From Nitrosospira sp. (lineage in GTDB: Bacteria > Pseudomonadota > Gammaproteobacteria > Burkholderiales > Nitrosomonadaceae), in contig JAPLQS010000067.1 of NCBI GenBank assembly GCA_026399575.1, positions 1-64,000 of the forward strand: a DNA stretch of 64,000 nucleotides, given 5' to 3'. Made by a program: the position numbers and the translations under genes. Positions 2,793 through 41,625 of this stretch are shown here, piece by piece. The notes beneath the pieces were generated by a model that had not been told where the DNA came from, ran no database searches, and worked only from the letters and a program-made list of their open reading frames with translations. Positions within the stretch are counted from its first letter, which is position 1, and every line of letters starts with the position of its first letter.

Positions 2793-4286
2793 CTACGAAA
2801 CGACTTTATCGCCGCCAGAATGCTGACCGGCATCCAACATCCCGGAGTGATGGAGAATTACATTATTACGCCCGTTTTTCTTCGCATGGTACATGGCGAT
2901 ATCGGCATTCTTCATCAAGGTTTTCTCATCTCTGCCATGCTCTGGATAAACAGCAATCCCAATACTTGACGAGATATGCATGCTATGGCCAGCCAACTCG
3001 AAGGGCTGACTCAAGACATGGCGAATTTTCTCTGCGACCATCGTGGCGTCCTGTTCCTGTTCAATATTCGGCAGCAGTGCAATGAATTCATCTCCGCCGA
3101 TTCGTGCAACGATATCGGATTCACGCATACACTCTTGCATGCGTTTAGCCGCCTCCTTCAGTAACAGATCCCCCACGGCATGACCAAATATATCATTGAT
3201 TGGTTTGAATTTATCCAGATCCAGAAACATCAGCGCCAAATATTTTTTATCCCGTTTGGCGGTGGCGAGAGCCTGTTGCAGACGGCCAGTGAACAGAGCG
3301 CGGTTGGGCAAGTCGGTAAGCGCATCAAATTGTGCCATATAAATCATGCGTTCCTCTGCGACCTTGCGCTCGGTGATGTCACGCACCGTTGCCTGCAATA
3401 CTTTTTTACCGCCATAGTCGAACGTGGACAGCAATACTTCGGCAGCGAAGTCTTCCCCATTTTTTCTGCGATGCACCCATTCGAAATGTTTCTGACCTTG
3501 CGCGTATGCGGCCATGATATTTTCATGTGCCGTCAACAGCGAATCCCGTCCATCAGGCTGGAAAGGCGGCGACAATACGGACAGGTGGGATGCGATGAAC
3601 TCCTGTTTAGTCGCCACCCCGAACATTGCTAGCGCACTATAATTGCAGTCGAGAAAACTTTTATCCGTTAGCAGCATGATGGCATCAGCCGAACTTTCGA
3701 AAATGGCGCGGAATTTTTTCTCGCTTGCATGCAGATTGGCATTAAGCTCCTTCAATTCTTCGTTCTGTCTGTGGGTCAACGCTTCCAGACGTTGCTTTTC
3801 CCGTTCCAGCATCTTCTGCTGCAAGGCATGCTTAACCGCTAGGGTGATATCATTTTCTTCCCATGGTTTGCATATGTAGCGGTATATCTGCCCTTTGTTA
3901 ATGGCCTCAATGGTGGCGTTGATCTCAGTGTAGCCACTGAGTAACATGCGCACCGTTTCCGGCCATTTTGCCCTGACTTTTTCCAGAAATTGTGCGCCGT
4001 TCATTTCCGGCATGAGCATATTGGAAATCACCAGATCAACGCTTTCGCGATCGAGGATTTTCAGTCCCTGGACACCGCCTTCCGCAGTCAATACACGATA
4101 GCCAAACGGGCGGAACAATCGCTTTAGTGACGCCAGAATATTGGGGTCATCGTCAACGAACAGTACAGTTGCGCCGATCACTGAAGCGGTCTGTGATGCC
4201 GGTACATCTCTTGTCTTGTCCATTCGCGCATCCATTAATTTCTCATTTTCTGAAAGTTGTATCGCTTCCGCCTTTTGCTTGCTCAT
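2793..4286 (-). CDS. REC-PAS-GGDEF diguanylate cyclase
   Basis: Predicted cyclic-di-GMP synthase of 497 residues: receiver (about 36-150), PAS (about 185-310) and GGDEF (about 320-480). The active-site motif R-I-G-G-D-E-F is intact and an inhibitory I-site (R-E-S-D) lies five residues before it, so the product should feed back on the enzyme. The receiver has Asn where the phosphoacceptor Asp belongs (V-I-S-N-M-L-M-P), although the acidic pocket and the Lys (C-K-P-W) remain. Regulation by ordinary phosphorylation is unlikely. The ATG overlaps the stop of the upstream kinase gene as ATGA, so the two are probably translationally coupled. The receiver is clearly paralogous to that of the next gene downstream. 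Confidence 0.93.
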   Translation of the reverse strand: MSKQKAEAIQLSENEKLMDARMDKTRDVPASQTASVIGATVLFVDDDPNILASLKRLFRPFGYRVLTAEGGVQGLKILDRESVDLVISNMLMPEMNGAQFLEKVRAKWPETVRMLLSGYTEINATIEAINKGQIYRYICKPWEENDITLAVKHALQQKMLEREKQRLEALTHRQNEELKELNANLHASEKKFRAIFESSADAIMLLTDKSFLDCNYSALAMFGVATKQEFIASHLSVLSPPFQPDGRDSLLTAHENIMAAYAQGQKHFEWVHRRKNGEDFAAEVLLSTFDYGGKKVLQATVRDITERKVAEERMIYMAQFDALTDLPNRALFTGRLQQALATAKRDKKYLALMFLDLDKFKPINDIFGHAVGDLLLKEAAKRMQECMRESDIVARIGGDEFIALLPNIEQEQDATMVAEKIRHVLSQPFELAGHSMHISSSIGIAVYPEHGRDEKTLMKNADIAMYHAKKNGRNNVILHHSGMLDAGQHSGGDKVVS

Positions 4287-31339: not shown

Positions 31340-33634
31340 ATGCCAGATTGCATCACTAACGACCACATTGACAAGAAAGACATCAAGTTTCTCGAGATCC
31401 GCCATCTGAATGGTCCCAATATCTGGACCTACTACCCGGTTCTTGAAGCACTTGTCGACATCGGCGAACTCGAAGACTTTCCATCCAACACCATCCCCGG
31501 CTTTTATGAACGTCTGTCTTCCTCGCTGCCTTCGCTGATCGAGCACCGCTGCAGCTACGAAGAACGTGGCGGTTTTCTGCGCCGGGTTGAGGAAGGCACC
31601 TGGCCATGCCATATCCTCGAACACGTTACGCTTGAATTGCAGAATCTGGCTGGCATGCGCGGCGGCTTTGGCAGGGCCCGTGAAACTTCGGTGCGCGGCG
31701 TCTACAAGGTGATCGTCAGCGCCTGGCATGCGGAAATTACGCGCAGCGCCCTGTTTGCAGCGCGCGAACTGGTGCTGTCAGCAATGCGGGGCCACCAACC
31801 CTATGACGTAGAGGCCACGCTCGAACGTCTGCGCGGCATGGTCGATTCGCTCTGGTTAGGCCCATCGACTGCATGCATCGTTGATGCCGCCGCCACTCGC
31901 AATATTCCCGCCATTCGACTGCTTGCCAGGGGAAATCTGGTGCAGCTCGGCCATGGCGCCCGCAGCCGACACATCTGGACCGCCGAAACCGACCGTACTC
32001 CGGCAATTGCTGAAAGCATCTCACGCGACAAGGATCTGACCAAGTCGCTGCTGCGCTCCTGCGGCGTTCCTGTTCCCGAGGGACGTATCGTCACCAGCGC
32101 TGAAGATGCCTGGGAAGCCGCTGAAGACATCGGCTTGCCTGTCGTGATCAAACCCTGTGACGGCAATCATGGCCGTGGGGTCTTCATTGAATTGACCCGA
32201 CGTGAAGAGGTCGAATCAGCCTATCACGCGGCACTGAAAGAAGGCAGTGGCGTACTGGTCGAACGTTATATCCCTGGTACCGAACACCGCTTGTTGATCG
32301 TGGGTGGACAACTCGTTGCCGCCAATCGGGGCGACTCGGTATCGGTTACCGGTGACGGGACTTCAACCATCACCGAGTTGATCGAGCAGCAGATCAATTC
32401 CGATCCGCGCCGCGGGACGACCGAAGACTTCCCGCTCAACATGATTCGCCTGGATAAAGCAGCACGCATGGAAATTGCCCATCAAGGTTTCAGCGGCGAC
32501 TCAGTGCCGGCAGCCGACCTTGAAGTTCTGATCCAGCGTAACGGCAACCACGCTTTCGACGTTACCGATGAAGTGCACCCCAGCATTGCCGCAGCGGCCT
32601 CACTCGCTGCCCGCATTGTCGGTCTGGATATCGCCGGCATCGATCTTGTCACCGCTGATATTTCGCGCCCGCTCAGCGAGCAAGGCGGCGCCATCGTCGA
32701 GGTCAACGCCGGCCCCAGCCTGCTGATGCATATCAAACCCGCTGTGGGCACACCCCGTCCGGTTGGCAAAGCCATCGTCGACCACCTGTTCCCGGACGGC
32801 GATGACGGTCGCATTCCGATTGTAGGCATCAGCGGCAGCTACGGCAAAACTACCGTGGCACACCTCGTCGCACGGCTGCTCACCCTCTCCGGCAAACATA
32901 CCGGGCTGGCATGCAGCGATGGGTTGTACCTGGATTCCAGGCAAATTGACAAAGGCGATTGCGCCAAATGGGATGCAGCCAACCGTATCCTGATAAACCG
33001 CTCGGTCGAGGCCGCCGTGTTTGAGAACGGCAGTGATGCCATCCTCGGCGAGGGACTGGTCTACGATTGCTGCCAGGTCGGCATCATCACCAACGTCGAG
33101 CCAACCCGGCACTACGGCCGCTACGATATTGCAACCCCCGAGCAGGTTTACACTATCCTGCGCACCCAGATAGACGTGGTAACACCGACCGCGGCGGCAG
33201 TGGATGATGTGATCGACATGGTATTGCCAACGGGTGCTGCGGTGCTTAACGCCAGGGTAGAGATGCTGGTCGAGATGTCCAAACTGTGCAACGGTGAAGT
33301 CATTTACTTCAGCCTTGATCCCGAACTGCCGGCTGTCACCGCGCATCGCGCACAAGAAGCGCAAGGCAGGCGTGCGGTCATCGTTCGTGCTGGGGAAATC
33401 ATGCTTGCCACCGGCGCCGATGAAGTGCTCTTGATCAAACTGGCCGATGTCCCTCTGACTGATGGCGGACGTGCAATTGCACAGATCGAGAACGTTCTGG
33501 CCGCAGTGGCTGCCGCATGGGCGCTCGGCATCGAACCCGATCTCATTCGCAGCGGAATCGCAATAACCGAATTAAGCCAGGAAAAATGTAGCTCTCCCCG
33601 GATCGAACCGGAAACTCAAGGAAACTATTCATGA
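31340..33634 (+). CDS. Cyanophycin synthetase-like protein, short form
   Basis: ATP-dependent ligase related to CphA, 764 residues against 857 for the neighbour. It has the N-terminal domain (L-N-G-P-N-I-W), an ATP-grasp domain (about 210-470, V-V-I-K-P-C-D-G-N-H-G-R-G-V and E-V-N-A-G-P-S) and the centre of a Mur-ligase domain with P-loop G-S-Y-G-K-T-T. The Mur C-terminal domain is missing: the protein stops soon after L-G-I-E-P-D-L-I. It resembles the second synthetase copy (CphA' or CphA2 type) known from other bacteria; CphA2 can polymerise beta-Asp-Arg dipeptides. Which activity this one has cannot be read from the sequence. ATGA overlap with cphA. Confidence 0.9.
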   Translation: MPDCITNDHIDKKDIKFLEIRHLNGPNIWTYYPVLEALVDIGELEDFPSNTIPGFYERLSSSLPSLIEHRCSYEERGGFLRRVEEGTWPCHILEHVTLELQNLAGMRGGFGRARETSVRGVYKVIVSAWHAEITRSALFAARELVLSAMRGHQPYDVEATLERLRGMVDSLWLGPSTACIVDAAATRNIPAIRLLARGNLVQLGHGARSRHIWTAETDRTPAIAESISRDKDLTKSLLRSCGVPVPEGRIVTSAEDAWEAAEDIGLPVVIKPCDGNHGRGVFIELTRREEVESAYHAALKEGSGVLVERYIPGTEHRLLIVGGQLVAANRGDSVSVTGDGTSTITELIEQQINSDPRRGTTEDFPLNMIRLDKAARMEIAHQGFSGDSVPAADLEVLIQRNGNHAFDVTDEVHPSIAAAASLAARIVGLDIAGIDLVTADISRPLSEQGGAIVEVNAGPSLLMHIKPAVGTPRPVGKAIVDHLFPDGDDGRIPIVGISGSYGKTTVAHLVARLLTLSGKHTGLACSDGLYLDSRQIDKGDCAKWDAANRILINRSVEAAVFENGSDAILGEGLVYDCCQVGIITNVEPTRHYGRYDIATPEQVYTILRTQIDVVTPTAAAVDDVIDMVLPTGAAVLNARVEMLVEMSKLCNGEVIYFSLDPELPAVTAHRAQEAQGRRAVIVRAGEIMLATGADEVLLIKLADVPLTDGGRAIAQIENVLAAVAAAWALGIEPDLIRSGIAITELSQEKCSSPRIEPETQGNYS

Positions 33635-36204
33635 ACGTATCGCGTATCCGCGCACTGCGCGGCCCCAATTTATGGAGCCAACGCACCGCCATAGAGGCTG
33701 TTGTCTCCTGCAACAGCGCCGAGTGTTCCCTGGACAAAATACCGGGACTTGTAGCCCAACTGAATAAACACTTCCCGGAAACCACCCTGCCCCAGCCAGT
33801 AGAACGCCACGAAGCCATAACCATGGCGCAGGTGCTGGAATTCGTCGCGCTCAACCTGCAAACACGAGCCGGTTGCCCGGTCAGCTTCAGCCACACCGCA
33901 CAAACAGCGGAAACCGGCACCTACCGGGTTATTGTTGAATACAGTGAAGAGGCAGTTGGTCGTCTTGCTTTTGAACTCGCACAAACTTTATGCCTTGCTG
34001 CAATTGATGCCACTCCCTTTGACCTGGCCGCAGCATTGCAGCGTCTGCGCGAACTGGATGAAGACATGCGCCTCGGACCCAGCACCGGCGCCATCGTCCA
34101 TGCCGCTGTAGCGCGCGGCATTCCTTATCGCCGCCTGACTGAAGGCAGCATGGTACAGTTTGGCTGGGGCAGCCGGCAGCGCCGTATCCAGGCCAGCGAA
34201 ACCGATCGGACCAGTGCCGTCGCCGAATCCATCGCACAGGACAAGGAATTGACCAAGATGCTGCTGCATGCTGCTGGCATTCCCGTTCCGGCAGGCCGAC
34301 CTGCAGCAAGTGCGGCAGATGCCTGGGCGGCCGCCTGCGAAATTGGCGGACCGGTCGTCGTAAAACCACAGGACGGCAACCAGGGCAAAGGAGTAGCAGT
34401 AAATCTCACAAACCGTGAGCAGGTGGAAACTGCCTACGCAATAGCGGCTGAAATCAGCGACGAAGTCCTGGTCGAACGTTACATCTCCGGCCATGACTAC
34501 CGCATGCTGGTGATCGGCAACAGACTGGTCGCTGCCGCGCGGCGCGAGCCGCCACAAGTGCTCGGCGATGGCGTGCACAGCGTGCGCCAGCTGGTGGATC
34601 AGGTCAACAGTGACCCACGACGTGGTAAGGATCACGTCACTGCGCTGACCAGAATAGATTTTGATGAAATTGCGCTTGCCCATCTCGCAACCCAGAACCT
34701 GACCGCCGCATCCATCCCGGCCAAAGATGTGCGCGTGATCCTGCGCAATAATGCCAACCTCTCTACGGGTGGCACAGCCACCGATGTGACCGACGAAGTT
34801 CACCCCGAGCTTGCCGCACGTGTGGTGGCCGCTGCGCAAATGATCGGCCTCGATATTTGCGGCGTTGATGTCATCTGCGACAACGTGCACAATCCGCTGG
34901 AGCAACAAAACGGCGGCATCGTCGAAGTGAATGCCGCACCAGGCCTGCGCATGCACCTGCAACCTTCATCCGGCAAAGGCCGTGCGGTTGGTGAGGCCGT
35001 CATCGCCAACATGTTTGCTGCTGACGACGATGGACGCATTCCCGTGGTCGCCGTGACCGGTACCAACGGCAAGACCACCACTGTGCGTCTGATCGCCAAC
35101 ATTCTCAGTTGCCAGAATCTGCGTGTCGGCATGACCAATACCGACGGGGTCTATGTTGCGGGACAGCGCATCGACACCGGCGATTGCAGCGGTCCGAAGA
35201 GTGCGAAAAATGTCCTGCTCCACCCCGATGTCGATGCCGCCGTATTCGAGACGGCGCGCGGCGGCATGCTGCGCGAAGGACTGGGTTTCGACCACTGCCA
35301 GGTTGCAGTGGTCACCAATATCGGCATGGGCGATCACCTTGGCCTCGCGCACGTGCATACGGCTGAGGATCTGGCTCTGGTCAAACGTGTCGTCGTGCAG
35401 AACGTTACGCCCGGCACTGGCGTCGCCGTGCTCAACGCCGCTGACCCACTGGTGGCCAACATGGCGGATGGCTGCCCCGGCTTGATCACCTTCTTCGCCC
35501 GCAACCGCCATCATCCGGTGATAGTCAGGCATCGTGCACAGGGCAAGCGTGTGATCTATCTCGACGGCGATTCGATAGTCGCTGCAGAAGCCGGGCTTGA
35601 GCACCGCATTTTGCTGAGCGGAATCCCGATCACGCAGAACGGTAGCATCGGTTTCCAGATCGAGAATGCCATGGCAGCCATCGGCGCCGGCTGGGCGCTT
35701 GCGCTTGATTGGGTGGTCATTCGTGCCGGTTTGGCCAGCTTTGTCAGTGATGTGCAAACCGCACCCGGCCGCTTCAATCTCTTCAGTCATCGTGGCGCCA
35801 CGTTGATCGCCGACTACGGTCACAATGCGGATGCAATCCGGGCGCTGGTATGCGCCATCGATAACATGCCGGCCAACCGCCGCTCGGTAGTCATCAGCGG
35901 TGCCGGCGACCGGCGCGACGAAGACATCCGCCAGCAAACCGAGATTCTCGGTGACGCTTTTGACGAGGTCGTGCTGTATCAGGATCAATGCCAGCGCGGC
36001 CGCGCCGATGGAGAGGTGCTGGGCCTGCTGCGGCAAGGACTGGAAAATGCCAAGCGTACCCGCGAGGTCAAGGAAATCCGGGGTGAGTTTGTCGCCATCG
36101 ATGCCGCTTTCGCCAGCCTCAAGGCCGGCGAACTCTGTCTTATTCTCGTCGACCAGGTCGAAGCAGCGCTCAGACACATCAGCAGGCGGGTAGTGGCAGG
36201 CTGA
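33631..36204 (+). CDS. cphA: Cyanophycin synthetase
   Basis: Makes cyanophycin, a nitrogen-storage polymer with a polyaspartate backbone and arginine side chains, without ribosomes. The 857 residues include the N-terminal domain (R-G-P-N-L-W), ATP-grasp domain for adding Asp (V-V-V-K-P-Q-D-G-N-Q-G-K-G-V, E-V-N-A-A-P-G), and a complete Mur-ligase-like domain for adding Arg (P-loop G-T-N-G-K-T-T-T near 480; I-A-D-Y-G-H-N-A-D in the C-terminal part). Length is normal. The start overlaps the previous gene's stop as ATGA, so the two synthetases are made together. No cyanophycinase gene is in the window. Confidence 0.96.
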   Translation: MNVSRIRALRGPNLWSQRTAIEAVVSCNSAECSLDKIPGLVAQLNKHFPETTLPQPVERHEAITMAQVLEFVALNLQTRAGCPVSFSHTAQTAETGTYRVIVEYSEEAVGRLAFELAQTLCLAAIDATPFDLAAALQRLRELDEDMRLGPSTGAIVHAAVARGIPYRRLTEGSMVQFGWGSRQRRIQASETDRTSAVAESIAQDKELTKMLLHAAGIPVPAGRPAASAADAWAAACEIGGPVVVKPQDGNQGKGVAVNLTNREQVETAYAIAAEISDEVLVERYISGHDYRMLVIGNRLVAAARREPPQVLGDGVHSVRQLVDQVNSDPRRGKDHVTALTRIDFDEIALAHLATQNLTAASIPAKDVRVILRNNANLSTGGTATDVTDEVHPELAARVVAAAQMIGLDICGVDVICDNVHNPLEQQNGGIVEVNAAPGLRMHLQPSSGKGRAVGEAVIANMFAADDDGRIPVVAVTGTNGKTTTVRLIANILSCQNLRVGMTNTDGVYVAGQRIDTGDCSGPKSAKNVLLHPDVDAAVFETARGGMLREGLGFDHCQVAVVTNIGMGDHLGLAHVHTAEDLALVKRVVVQNVTPGTGVAVLNAADPLVANMADGCPGLITFFARNRHHPVIVRHRAQGKRVIYLDGDSIVAAEAGLEHRILLSGIPITQNGSIGFQIENAMAAIGAGWALALDWVVIRAGLASFVSDVQTAPGRFNLFSHRGATLIADYGHNADAIRALVCAIDNMPANRRSVVISGAGDRRDEDIRQQTEILGDAFDEVVLYQDQCQRGRADGEVLGLLRQGLENAKRTREVKEIRGEFVAIDAAFASLKAGELCLILVDQVEAALRHISRRVVAG

Positions 36205-39282: not shown

Positions 39283-40383
39283 ATGAAAATTCTCGGTCGT
39301 TTCGTAACTGTTCTTCTGCTCTGCTGTGCCCTGCCCGCCACTGCCCAGAATCGTGTTTTACCCCTGGATAAAATCAAATTGCCGCCCGGGTTCAGCATCG
39401 CTCTATGGGCGGAAGCGCCCAATGCACGCGGCCTGGCGTTGGGAAAAAATGGCACGGTATTCGCCGGCTCCATGGCAGAAGGCAAGGTTTATGCGATTAG
39501 CGAAAACAATGGCGCGCGCCAGGTCAGAATCATTGCCCATGGGCTCAATCTGCCGGTGGGTGTCGCCTTCCGTGAGGGGGCGCTGTATGTCTCTGCGATC
39601 AATCGCATTCTGCGCTTTGATGACATTGAGCAAAAACTCGATCAACCCGGCAAGCCGGTGCTAGTGACCGATATTTTTCCCTCGGAAAAACACCATGGCG
39701 GGAGATTCATCGCCTTTGGCCCCGACGGCCTGCTGTATGCAGCGATCGGCGCACCGTGCAATAGCTGCGAGGTAGATCCCGCCAATTTTGCCATGATTGC
39801 GCACATCAAACCCGATGGCAGCGGCCGTGAAATTTACGCACAAGGCGTAAGAAATTCAGGCGGCTTTGACTGGCATCCGGAAACCAGGGAATTGTGGTTT
39901 ACCGATACCGGAAACGACTGGTTGGGCGACAATACGCCGCCCGACGAACTCAATCATGCCCCCAGAAAAGGCATGCATTTCGGCTTTCCCTATTGTTATG
40001 GCGGCGATGTTCCCGACCCTAAATTTGGCGCCAAGCGCGATTGCGGCAAGCTCACTGCGCCGGCAGTCAAATTCGATGCGCATATTGTGCCATTGGGAAT
40101 GCGTTTCTACACCGGCAAGATGTTTCCGGCGGAATATCATAACCAGATTCTGGTGGCCGAGAATGGCTCGTGGAATCGCCGTGAGAAGGTCGGCTACCGG
40201 CTCAAGCTGATCCAGCTAAAGAACAACAAGGTGGTGAAACAGCAAGTGTTTGCCGAAGGCTGGCTGCAGGAAGAAAAAGCATGGGGCAAGCCGGCTGACA
40301 TGCTGGTGATGCCCGACGGCGCGCTGCTGGTTTCGGATGACCATGCCGGCGCAATTTACCGCATCAGCTACAAGAAACCGTAG
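39283..40383 (+). CDS. Secreted sorbosone/glucose dehydrogenase-like beta-propeller protein
   Basis: Periplasmic protein of 366 residues of the soluble, PQQ-dependent sugar dehydrogenase fold. It has a signal peptide ([14 protein letters not shown]), then propeller repeats with the family's [33 protein letters not shown] and [10 protein letters not shown]. It also has a Cys pair (C-N-S-C). Substrate and cofactor use are unproven for this subfamily, and no PQQ genes are nearby. The ATG at 39283 is preferred to a TTG nine bases earlier. The nested repeat at 40388 follows directly and may serve as terminator. Confidence 0.85.
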
Positions 40384-40387
40384 AACC

Positions 40388-40467
40388 GTAGGCTGGGGTG
40401 AGGCACGAACCCCAGCAGCGTCATGTAATCTCGAAATGCTGGGGTTCACAAGTTCACCCCAGCCTAC
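40388..40467. repeat. Nested inverted repeat (REP/MITE-like)
   Basis: Outer arms GTAGGCTGGGGTGA (40388-40401) and TCACCCCAGCCTAC (40454-40467) are perfect complements. Inner arms GAACCCCAGCA (40407-40417) and TGCTGGGGTTC (40437-40447) also pair. The whole 80-base unit can fold into one long cruciform or hairpin just after the stop of the sugar-dehydrogenase gene. The motif pairing GTAGGCTGGGGT with GAACCCCAGC is of a type dispersed in many proteobacterial genomes. I found no second copy in this window. Confidence 0.75.
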
Positions 40468-40694
40468 TGCACTTCGGAGTTGAAAGCCTGACCGTCTCCT
40501 CCTGGCACAACTGAGACCTGCATGAAAGACCTGGGTCGAGAGGCGGTATTTCGAGATGCCAGGAAATGTCTAGTAAATCAGGGGTGATCAACCCCCACAC
40601 ATCAAATTTCCTCAAGTAAAACTATGCCGTGCCGTTATCCTTTATTAGGAGAAGGTTGGCCAGATCAGAATGATCGGCTAACCCGCAATTACTC

Positions 40695-40762
40695 GGCAAA
40701 CTTACTGAAAGGTAAGGACGCAAAGTCACCGGCCTAAGGGAAACTAAGGTAGCGGGACTGCC
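40695..40762 (+). ncRNA. Cyclic-di-GMP-I (GEMM) riboswitch aptamer
   Basis: The conserved GEMM-I core is present in order: GGCAAAC, a stem capped by a GAAA tetraloop (TTACTGAAAGGTAA), GGACGCAAAG, the tetraloop-receptor helix starting CACCGGCCTAAG, and GGTAGCGGGACTGCC. The closing helix P1 pairs GGCA (40695-40698) with TGCC (40759-40762). The element lies 191 bases before the ATG of the orphan receiver gene. Hairpins occur at 40764-40781 (CATGGA/TCCATG) and near 40850 (GAGCA/TGCTC) in the expression platform, but neither has a U-tract, so control may act on translation or a distant terminator. Confidence 0.85.
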
Positions 40763-40953
40763 TCATGGATGCTCGTCCATGTGCAGAACCGACTCTGAAG
40801 CGCCCCGACACCAAAGACGGTCATGCCGTGAAAACACGTACGGTCAATCTCTGAGCAGTTTGCTCCGGATAGATGCGTTGACATAACGGCGTGGATTTTT
40901 GCATCACGTACAACAATGAAATCCGCTATTGAACATCAAGAAGGAGTTTCATC

Positions 40954-41427
40954 ATGAATGCAGGCAAAGCACTGGTTGATCAGGCACACTGGTTGTTACA
41001 CGAAATCGAAGTGCAATCTACAGATAGCTGTACGGGTTTGCGCATAGTACTGGCCGATGACAGCAGTGACATGCGCCAGCTTCTAAAAGGCATTCTGGAG
41101 AATATGGGTGCAGAGATAATAGGTGAAGCTGTCGATGGCCAGCAGGCAATCACCATGGCAGCACAGTATCGACCCGATATTATATGCCTGGATGTGGAAA
41201 TGCCGATTGTGAGCGGTATCGATGCACTCGCCAAGATACATGCAAGCCATCCAAGCATCAAAGCTGTCATGGTAGCCAACCGGGCTGACCTAAATACAGC
41301 CGTGCGGGCAATCACCCTCGGGGCTTGCGGCTATATACTCAAACCTTACAAACCGGACCAACTCGAGGCTGCCTTATGCAAGGTGATACGATACAAGCGT
41401 AAGCAGCTCTTAGTGGCCAGGACATAA
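40954..41427 (+). CDS. CheY-like response regulator under riboswitch control
   Basis: Stand-alone receiver protein of 157 residues: an N-terminal extension of about 28 residues, then the domain with acidic pocket (V-L-A-D-D-S), phosphoacceptor Asp in C-L-D-V-E-M-P and Lys in I-L-K-P-Y. The position of the conserved switch Ser/Thr reads M-V-A-N-R, so it is Ala, which may weaken the phosphorylation response. There is no output domain and no kinase next to it. A strong AAGGAG precedes the ATG. The cyclic-di-GMP riboswitch in the leader implies that its level follows the second messenger made elsewhere, for example by the 1.3-10 kb cluster. Confidence 0.88.
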   Translation: MNAGKALVDQAHWLLHEIEVQSTDSCTGLRIVLADDSSDMRQLLKGILENMGAEIIGEAVDGQQAITMAAQYRPDIICLDVEMPIVSGIDALAKIHASHPSIKAVMVANRADLNTAVRAITLGACGYILKPYKPDQLEAALCKVIRYKRKQLLVART

Positions 41428-41625
41428 TCCCTTCGGGTGCGCCAGTATCAAATTTGAACTGAGATAATCCAGTTACCAGCTTTTCCCGAACCGGCGAACC
41501 ACCCGTAACTTAAATACTAAACGTCTGTTCCTGGCACTTTCGCACCCTTCAAGTACGGCTCAGTTCGGATGAAGTCTGACATTGTATGTGAGATTGAGCC
41601 CGAACTGATGCCGGTGGGTGCTGTG

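Follow-up and report, generated by a model that had tools for sequence, protein, structure and literature searches.

The window analysed here (the whole stretch of 64,000 nucleotides) is contig C93 of a 2.09 Mb Nitrosospira genome assembled in 93 contigs, from an uncultured member of the Nitrosomonadaceae, a family of ammonia oxidisers. The locus of interest consists of a c-di-GMP-I (GEMM-I) riboswitch aptamer in the 5' leader of a same-strand, apparently monocistronic ORF that begins 188 nt downstream and encodes a receiver-domain protein. Its features are as follows:

40656..40684, + strand: promoter-like motif TTGGCC-17 nt-TAACCC, just 5' of the aptamer (proposed from the alignment of 11 leader copies)
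40685..40765, + strand: c-di-GMP-I (GEMM-I) riboswitch aptamer (RF01051, 71.5 bits), with GAAA tetraloop and GGACGCAAAG core
40751..40794, + strand: predicted anti-aptamer hairpin (fold energy z and conservation)
40766..40953, + strand: rest of the 188-nt leader, from aptamer to start codon (alignment of 11 leader copies)
40874..40893, + strand: weak terminator-like site, 7 pairs (3 G-C) followed by GATTTTTGCA (terminator scan; private to the window copy)
40941..40946, + strand: Shine-Dalgarno AAGGAG, 7 nt before the ATG (read directly)
40954..41427, + strand: single receiver-domain protein, 157 aa (Pfam Response_reg; alignment to solved CheY chains)
40978..40984, + strand: putative junction of an in-frame Rec1 deletion, at about codons 9/10 (alignment with the G001 and G010 Rec-Rec proteins, by eye)

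Elsewhere in the window, 31340-36204 holds two overlapping ORFs of 764 and 857 aa, which we take to be a cyanophycin-synthetase-type pair.

The covariance-model search that the original prediction had proposed as a check on its GEMM-I riboswitch returned a significant match to RF01051 (E 4.8e-12 for 64 kb), scoring 71.5 bits against a gathering score of 35 and covering model positions 1-87 of 87, its full length. The riboswitch had been called correctly, while its start moves from 40695 to 40685, ten bases earlier. RF01051 was the only Rfam family listed for 40560-41440 with a cut-off of E 5; the scan had dropped two lower-scoring matches from the same clan that overlapped others. By sequence, 40685-40765 is a genuine c-di-GMP-I riboswitch, rather typical of an established class, with an unusually short distal P3 stem. 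In the RF01051 alignment, read by eye, the ligand-contact bases G20, A47 and C92 (Vc2 numbering) are all present. The first of these is the specificity position, where c-di-GMP binders have G; the G found here favours c-di-GMP over cGAMP, and makes it very improbable that the aptamer senses this other dinucleotide with a GEMM-Ib specificity. In favour of that alternative, many GEMM-I riboswitches of Geobacter are described as selective for cGAMP in an excerpt of PMC6456294. The host likely makes c-di-GMP, since 18 GGDEF matches, some partial, were found in its genome, which also contains four RF01051 matches. The family occurs in 36 of 61 genomes in the search of relatives and 67 of 369 in the class search, the window genome being counted in both.

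In the protein encoded behind the aptamer, Pfam finds a single Response_reg domain (PF00072) at residues 31-141, with 91.3 bits against a threshold of 30.2, and nothing else at E<=0.001, which bears out the expectation of a bare receiver with no output domain. Aligned with CheY chains whose structures are solved, the protein keeps D35, D36, D80, Y127 and K130, and it has the acid pocket, phospho-acceptor Asp and Lys of PF00072. It lacks the switch Ser/Thr, a residue usual in receiver domains and not demanded by the Pfam model: as had also been foreseen, an Ala (Ala108) lies there, opposite the Ser of the CheY chains. Having Ala in place of the switch Thr, the receiver probably does not work as a classical two-state switch but as a phosphate sink or a binding partner.

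The original description of an orphan CheY-like protein holds as regards the single receiver, which is nonetheless better read, from alignment with the G001 and G010 homologues, as a Rec-Rec protein minus Rec1. At E<=1e-25 the window protein was matched in 5 of 61 genomes, its own included. The homologue in the sister species G001 is 70% identical, 290 aa long from a TTG start, has two receivers, and follows a riboswitch of its own (RF01051 at C2:34561-34641, then 193 nt, then the Rec-Rec gene). Homologues in G010, G019 and G036 (47, 39 and 40% identity; 264-265 aa) also read as tandem receivers, the two domains having been confirmed with Pfam in the G001 and G010 proteins, and none of the three homologues from G010, G019 and G036 lies near an RF01051 match in its own genome. 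The window protein, with one receiver against two in G001 and G010, is not such a tandem: some nine residues of the ancestral N terminus are joined directly to the linker before Rec2, and about 133 codons present in G001 are absent in frame, the junction being placed by eye. Loss is the simpler reading because the relatives outside the window/G001 pair have two receivers, and the window receiver looks like the second half of a Rec-Rec protein after in-frame loss of Rec1, with a single MAG assembly as witness. Ala108 is probably derived, since the switch position is Thr in Rec2 of both G001 and G010.

These changes raise the question of whether a functional aptamer now precedes a decaying remnant, a protein deprived of Rec1, of its switch Thr and of any output. 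The in-frame loss and the T-to-A substitution relative to G001 and G010 would fit such decay, as would the scarcity of the protein (5 of 61 genomes at E<=1e-25, window genome included) and the state of G008, where no such match is found and one leader copy is followed by a 26-codon ORF that resembles the beginning of the gene. We nevertheless regard decay as rather unlikely, given that the phosphorylation-site residues are kept, the frame is open and the Shine-Dalgarno is good. Furthermore, over 140 codons compared with Rec2 of G001, dN is 0.20 and dS 0.77, and the resulting dN/dS of about 0.26, from one pair with both lineages mixed and not separated, argues for a functional receiver domain.

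The riboswitch is not private to the receiver gene, as the same leader stands before classical GEMM-I targets in the genus. Searching with 40640-40975 (336 bases) recovered the leader unit, which comprises promoter-like motif, aptamer and leader, in 11 copies from five of the nine genomes of the genus, window included:

Window, + strand: single-receiver gene
G001: Rec-Rec gene
G000: type IV pilin
G004: pilin-like by reading, 40% identical to the G000 pilin
G000: GGDEF-EAL
G001: GGDEF-EAL, 98% identical to the G000 copy
G000: CSD-DUF1294
G008, two copies: RTX proteins, one with cadherin-like domains
G008 (L049): M10/RTX protein
G003: 298-aa ORF without a Pfam match

The common stretch begins at the promoter-like motif, about 30 nt 5' of the aptamer, and differs among copies in its 3' extent, the matches stopping at query positions 147-327 of 336. 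In a search of 125 genomes of the family, three matches fell outside the genus, and these covered nothing but aptamer bases. In G008, between the leader and the M10 gene (L049, G008:C40, about 3110-3205), we found a 26-codon ORF starting MNAGTVLVDSP, the stop of which overlaps the M10 start codon; it resembles the start of the receiver proteins, and G008 has no match to the window protein at E<=1e-25. This resemblance points to the receiver gene as the origin of the leader. We tentatively raise the possibility that promoter, aptamer and leader form a portable cassette that has been copied before unrelated genes, capturing them into a c-di-GMP regulon, with the receiver (Rec-Rec) locus as one source. 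A comparison aimed at sites lacking the leader yielded no empty site: the CSD-DUF1294 gene was matched in one of nine genomes at the cut-offs used, the GGDEF-EAL gene had its 98% counterpart in G001, where the leader is present, and paralogues of 44-75% identity in G000, G001 and G004, and pilin matches in other genomes were 36-40% identical.

Two side observations concern the genes behind these and related riboswitches. The copies L039 (G000:C9) and L046 (G004:C52) look very alike in leader and upstream DNA, yet the pilin genes that follow encode proteins with only 40% identity, which would fit a swapped or fast-evolving pilin. In another genus of the family, L089 (G028:C45) and L094 (G034:C23) are a pair of GEMM-I riboswitches that resemble each other and are very unlike that of the window; L089 precedes a protein whose start, by eye, is like that of the G008 M10/RTX protein, and none such is listed behind L094. 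An M10/RTX-type gene may have come under GEMM-I control more than once.

Upstream of the aptamer, the promoter-like motif reads, by eye, TTGACT in 6 and TAGCGT in 4 of the 11 copies. A scan with the sigma-70 consensus did not report the 40656-40684 motif in the window, nor its equivalent in three of four other copies; it did report the motif in L048, with 9 of 12 consensus matches, and two sites in the scan of one other copy fall away from the motif.

Downstream, the 3' strand of the aptamer (AGCGG..CTGC) can pair with GCAG..CCG.CT around a CATGGAT/GTCCATG stem-loop, the layout just 3' of the core being CTGC-ct-CATGGAT-loop-GTCCATG-t-GCAG with a CCG that extends to the aptamer's CGG. The fold of 40740-40800 has a z of -3.26, two other copies giving -5.39 and -3.13 (three copies tested), compared with -2.02 for the whole leader, which 7 of 200 shuffles equalled. 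Across the alignment of 11 copies, 90.9% of cells in the hairpin are paired, against 26-40% when the pairing is slid and 91.0% when letters are shuffled; no compensatory changes were found in these copies, and the covariation term of their consensus fold is only -0.06. For the 11 copies, the energy that is predicted to be gained when the aptamer pairs with the downstream strand lies between -6.6 and -20.4 kcal/mol, values that by construction are never unfavourable and have no control. Energy and conservation, without covariation, make the 40751-40794 hairpin a plausible candidate switch element. A second structured RNA in the leader was considered and set aside: there is no Rfam match to E 5, 40766-40880 taken by itself is no more stable than shuffled sequence (z 0.32), and the consensus fold contains the anti-aptamer hairpin only.

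A switch that masks the Shine-Dalgarno receives no support from folding with the aptamer forced, its predicted accessibility being 0.37 in both states (computed on AGGAGT, one base shifted). The absence of such a predicted switch would accord with action on transcription rather than translation, through a weak intrinsic terminator, Rho or a short leader ORF, which we consider somewhat unlikely overall. For the first of these, one terminator-like site (40874-40893) was found against 0.3 expected in 40640-40980 (341 bases), or one against 1.2 in 40380-41620 (1241 bases), but scans of five other copies gave none on the leader strand, and in a single copy one on the opposite strand; a strong intrinsic terminator serving as expression platform was sought and not found, this weak, copy-specific site being the only one. 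For Rho, C runs of 6-12 are the longest in 5 of the 11 copies, and the best 78-nt C/G ratio exceeds the window's 95th percentile (1.87) in 4 of 11, a comparison of best-of-many with all stretches that is not a fair test, but the window copy is unremarkable by composition, its best ratio of 1.44 falling under the 90th percentile of 1.65. As regards a leader peptide, 4 of the 11 copies (window, G001 receiver, G003 and G004) have an intact short frame that starts with ATG and ends at a shared stop, but it is broken in the other 7.

Two further elements were noted in these leaders. The C runs (6 to 12) lie 3' of the anti-aptamer hairpin in L039, L046, L047, L048 and L049 and vary in length, marking a possible slippage site or assembly noise. 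A CCGGTAT-loop-ATACCGG hairpin stands shortly 5' of the Shine-Dalgarno or gene start at 3088-3106 of L049 and, by eye, at the matching place in L039, L046 and L048; it is degenerate in the window copy, and in the terminator scan of one copy it is listed on the opposite strand.

Taken as a whole, we consider it probable that a riboswitch in the leader adjusts the level of a small receiver protein to cellular c-di-GMP. In the ligand-free state, the strong hairpin at 40751-40794 is predicted to capture the 3' part of the aptamer; c-di-GMP would hold this part in the aptamer and free the downstream strand, and thereby presumably change translation or transcription of the receiver gene. The receiver, putatively Rec2 of an ancestral Rec-Rec protein, with Ala for Thr and a probable role as phosphate sink or binding partner, would be co-regulated with the surface-attachment genes under sister copies of the leader. 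This explanation is supported by the RF01051 (71.5 bits) and Pfam (91.3 bits) matches, the riboswitch-receiver association kept in G001, the dN of 0.20 against a dS of 0.77, the leader copies before genes of c-di-GMP type, the z values of the hairpin and of the whole leader, and the 18 GGDEF matches; it is weakened by the lack of compensatory change in the hairpin and its paired share no higher than in shuffled letters, the uncontrolled pairing energies, the privacy of the terminator-like site, the unchanged accessibility of the Shine-Dalgarno, the unremarkable fold of 40766-40880 and a dN/dS that mixes both lineages.

If correct, a two-component protein of an uncultured member of the Nitrosomonadaceae is under likely c-di-GMP control alongside pilus, adhesin-like and GGDEF-EAL genes. 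Furthermore, if the leader does travel as a cassette, the genus would offer a natural series for the growth of a riboswitch regulon by copying of promoter plus switch, complete with a coding relic. To our knowledge such growth by copying has seldom been seen so directly, and among the matches listed in a search of the literature on riboswitch duplication or recruitment, no title or beginning of an abstract described such a case.

Placing the locus among other GEMM-I riboswitches, we found that 5 of the 156 loci examined are followed on the same strand, at no more than 1.6 kb, by a receiver: the window, G001, two Rec-PilZ genes (G485 and G390) and one single-receiver gene (G247), in which positions 1-90 of the 111-position profile were matched and which is followed by an HD-domain gene. 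By counts made by eye, the 156 comprise 68 of the 76 RF01051 matches from the search of relatives and 88 of the 111 from the class search outside G000 and G010, those left out being mostly weak matches together with L147, which has no recognisable core. Each member of a tandem was counted as a locus of its own, with downstream stretches that overlap; fewer than 200 nt follow the aptamer at three loci, contig ends cut some others, and in L128-L155 the aptamer end was set by the core motif rather than by model coordinates. The window protein served as seed for the receiver profile, which was extended at a cut-off of E 0.01 within the fetched loci alone and may miss divergent receivers. The G485, G390 and G247 loci share with the window a receiver directly behind GEMM-I and differ from it in domain make-up or neighbours. 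Separately, the G485 and G390 loci (L182 and L186) are of note in that a c-di-GMP riboswitch apparently controls a Rec-PilZ protein, likely itself a c-di-GMP-binding receiver protein.

In the literature, no paper on a stand-alone receiver with a c-di-GMP riboswitch appeared in a full-text search, and the window case is not reported among the matches listed for c-di-GMP-I or GEMM riboswitches with response regulators or receiver domains (an excerpt of the review PMC12564702 included) and for Nitrosomonas riboswitches. Among the closest known systems is that of C. difficile, in which, according to an excerpt of PMC6200980, c-di-GMP riboswitches exert direct control over the operons of two putative response regulators (CD630_32650 and CD630_32670). 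As is proposed for the window, a c-di-GMP riboswitch there sets the level of two-component proteins; these regulators, however, have DNA-binding domains, whereas the window encodes a lone receiver in a Gram-negative bacterium. The proposal that two signalling layers are joined at the RNA level is a fair inference from the position of the riboswitch, but given C. difficile and the Rec-PilZ and single-receiver loci it is not new in kind.

The aptamer shares with the RF01051 type, Vc2 of Vibrio cholerae, a complete model match, the GAAA tetraloop, the core and a position in the 5' leader, and the targets in the genus include the surface, pilus and cyclic-dinucleotide genes usual for the class. 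It departs from Vc2 in its very short P3 stem, in a 188-nt leader without a strong terminator and in that this genus-specific leader is common to unrelated genes. Bc1 of Bacillus thuringiensis, as described in an excerpt of PMC11218506, likewise has a long leader between aptamer and gene, but with two typical intrinsic terminators where the window has one weak, copy-specific terminator-like site. Together, these comparisons indicate that a receiver behind a GEMM-I riboswitch is real, somewhat uncommon and known in kind, and that the freshest part of the present locus is its copied leader.
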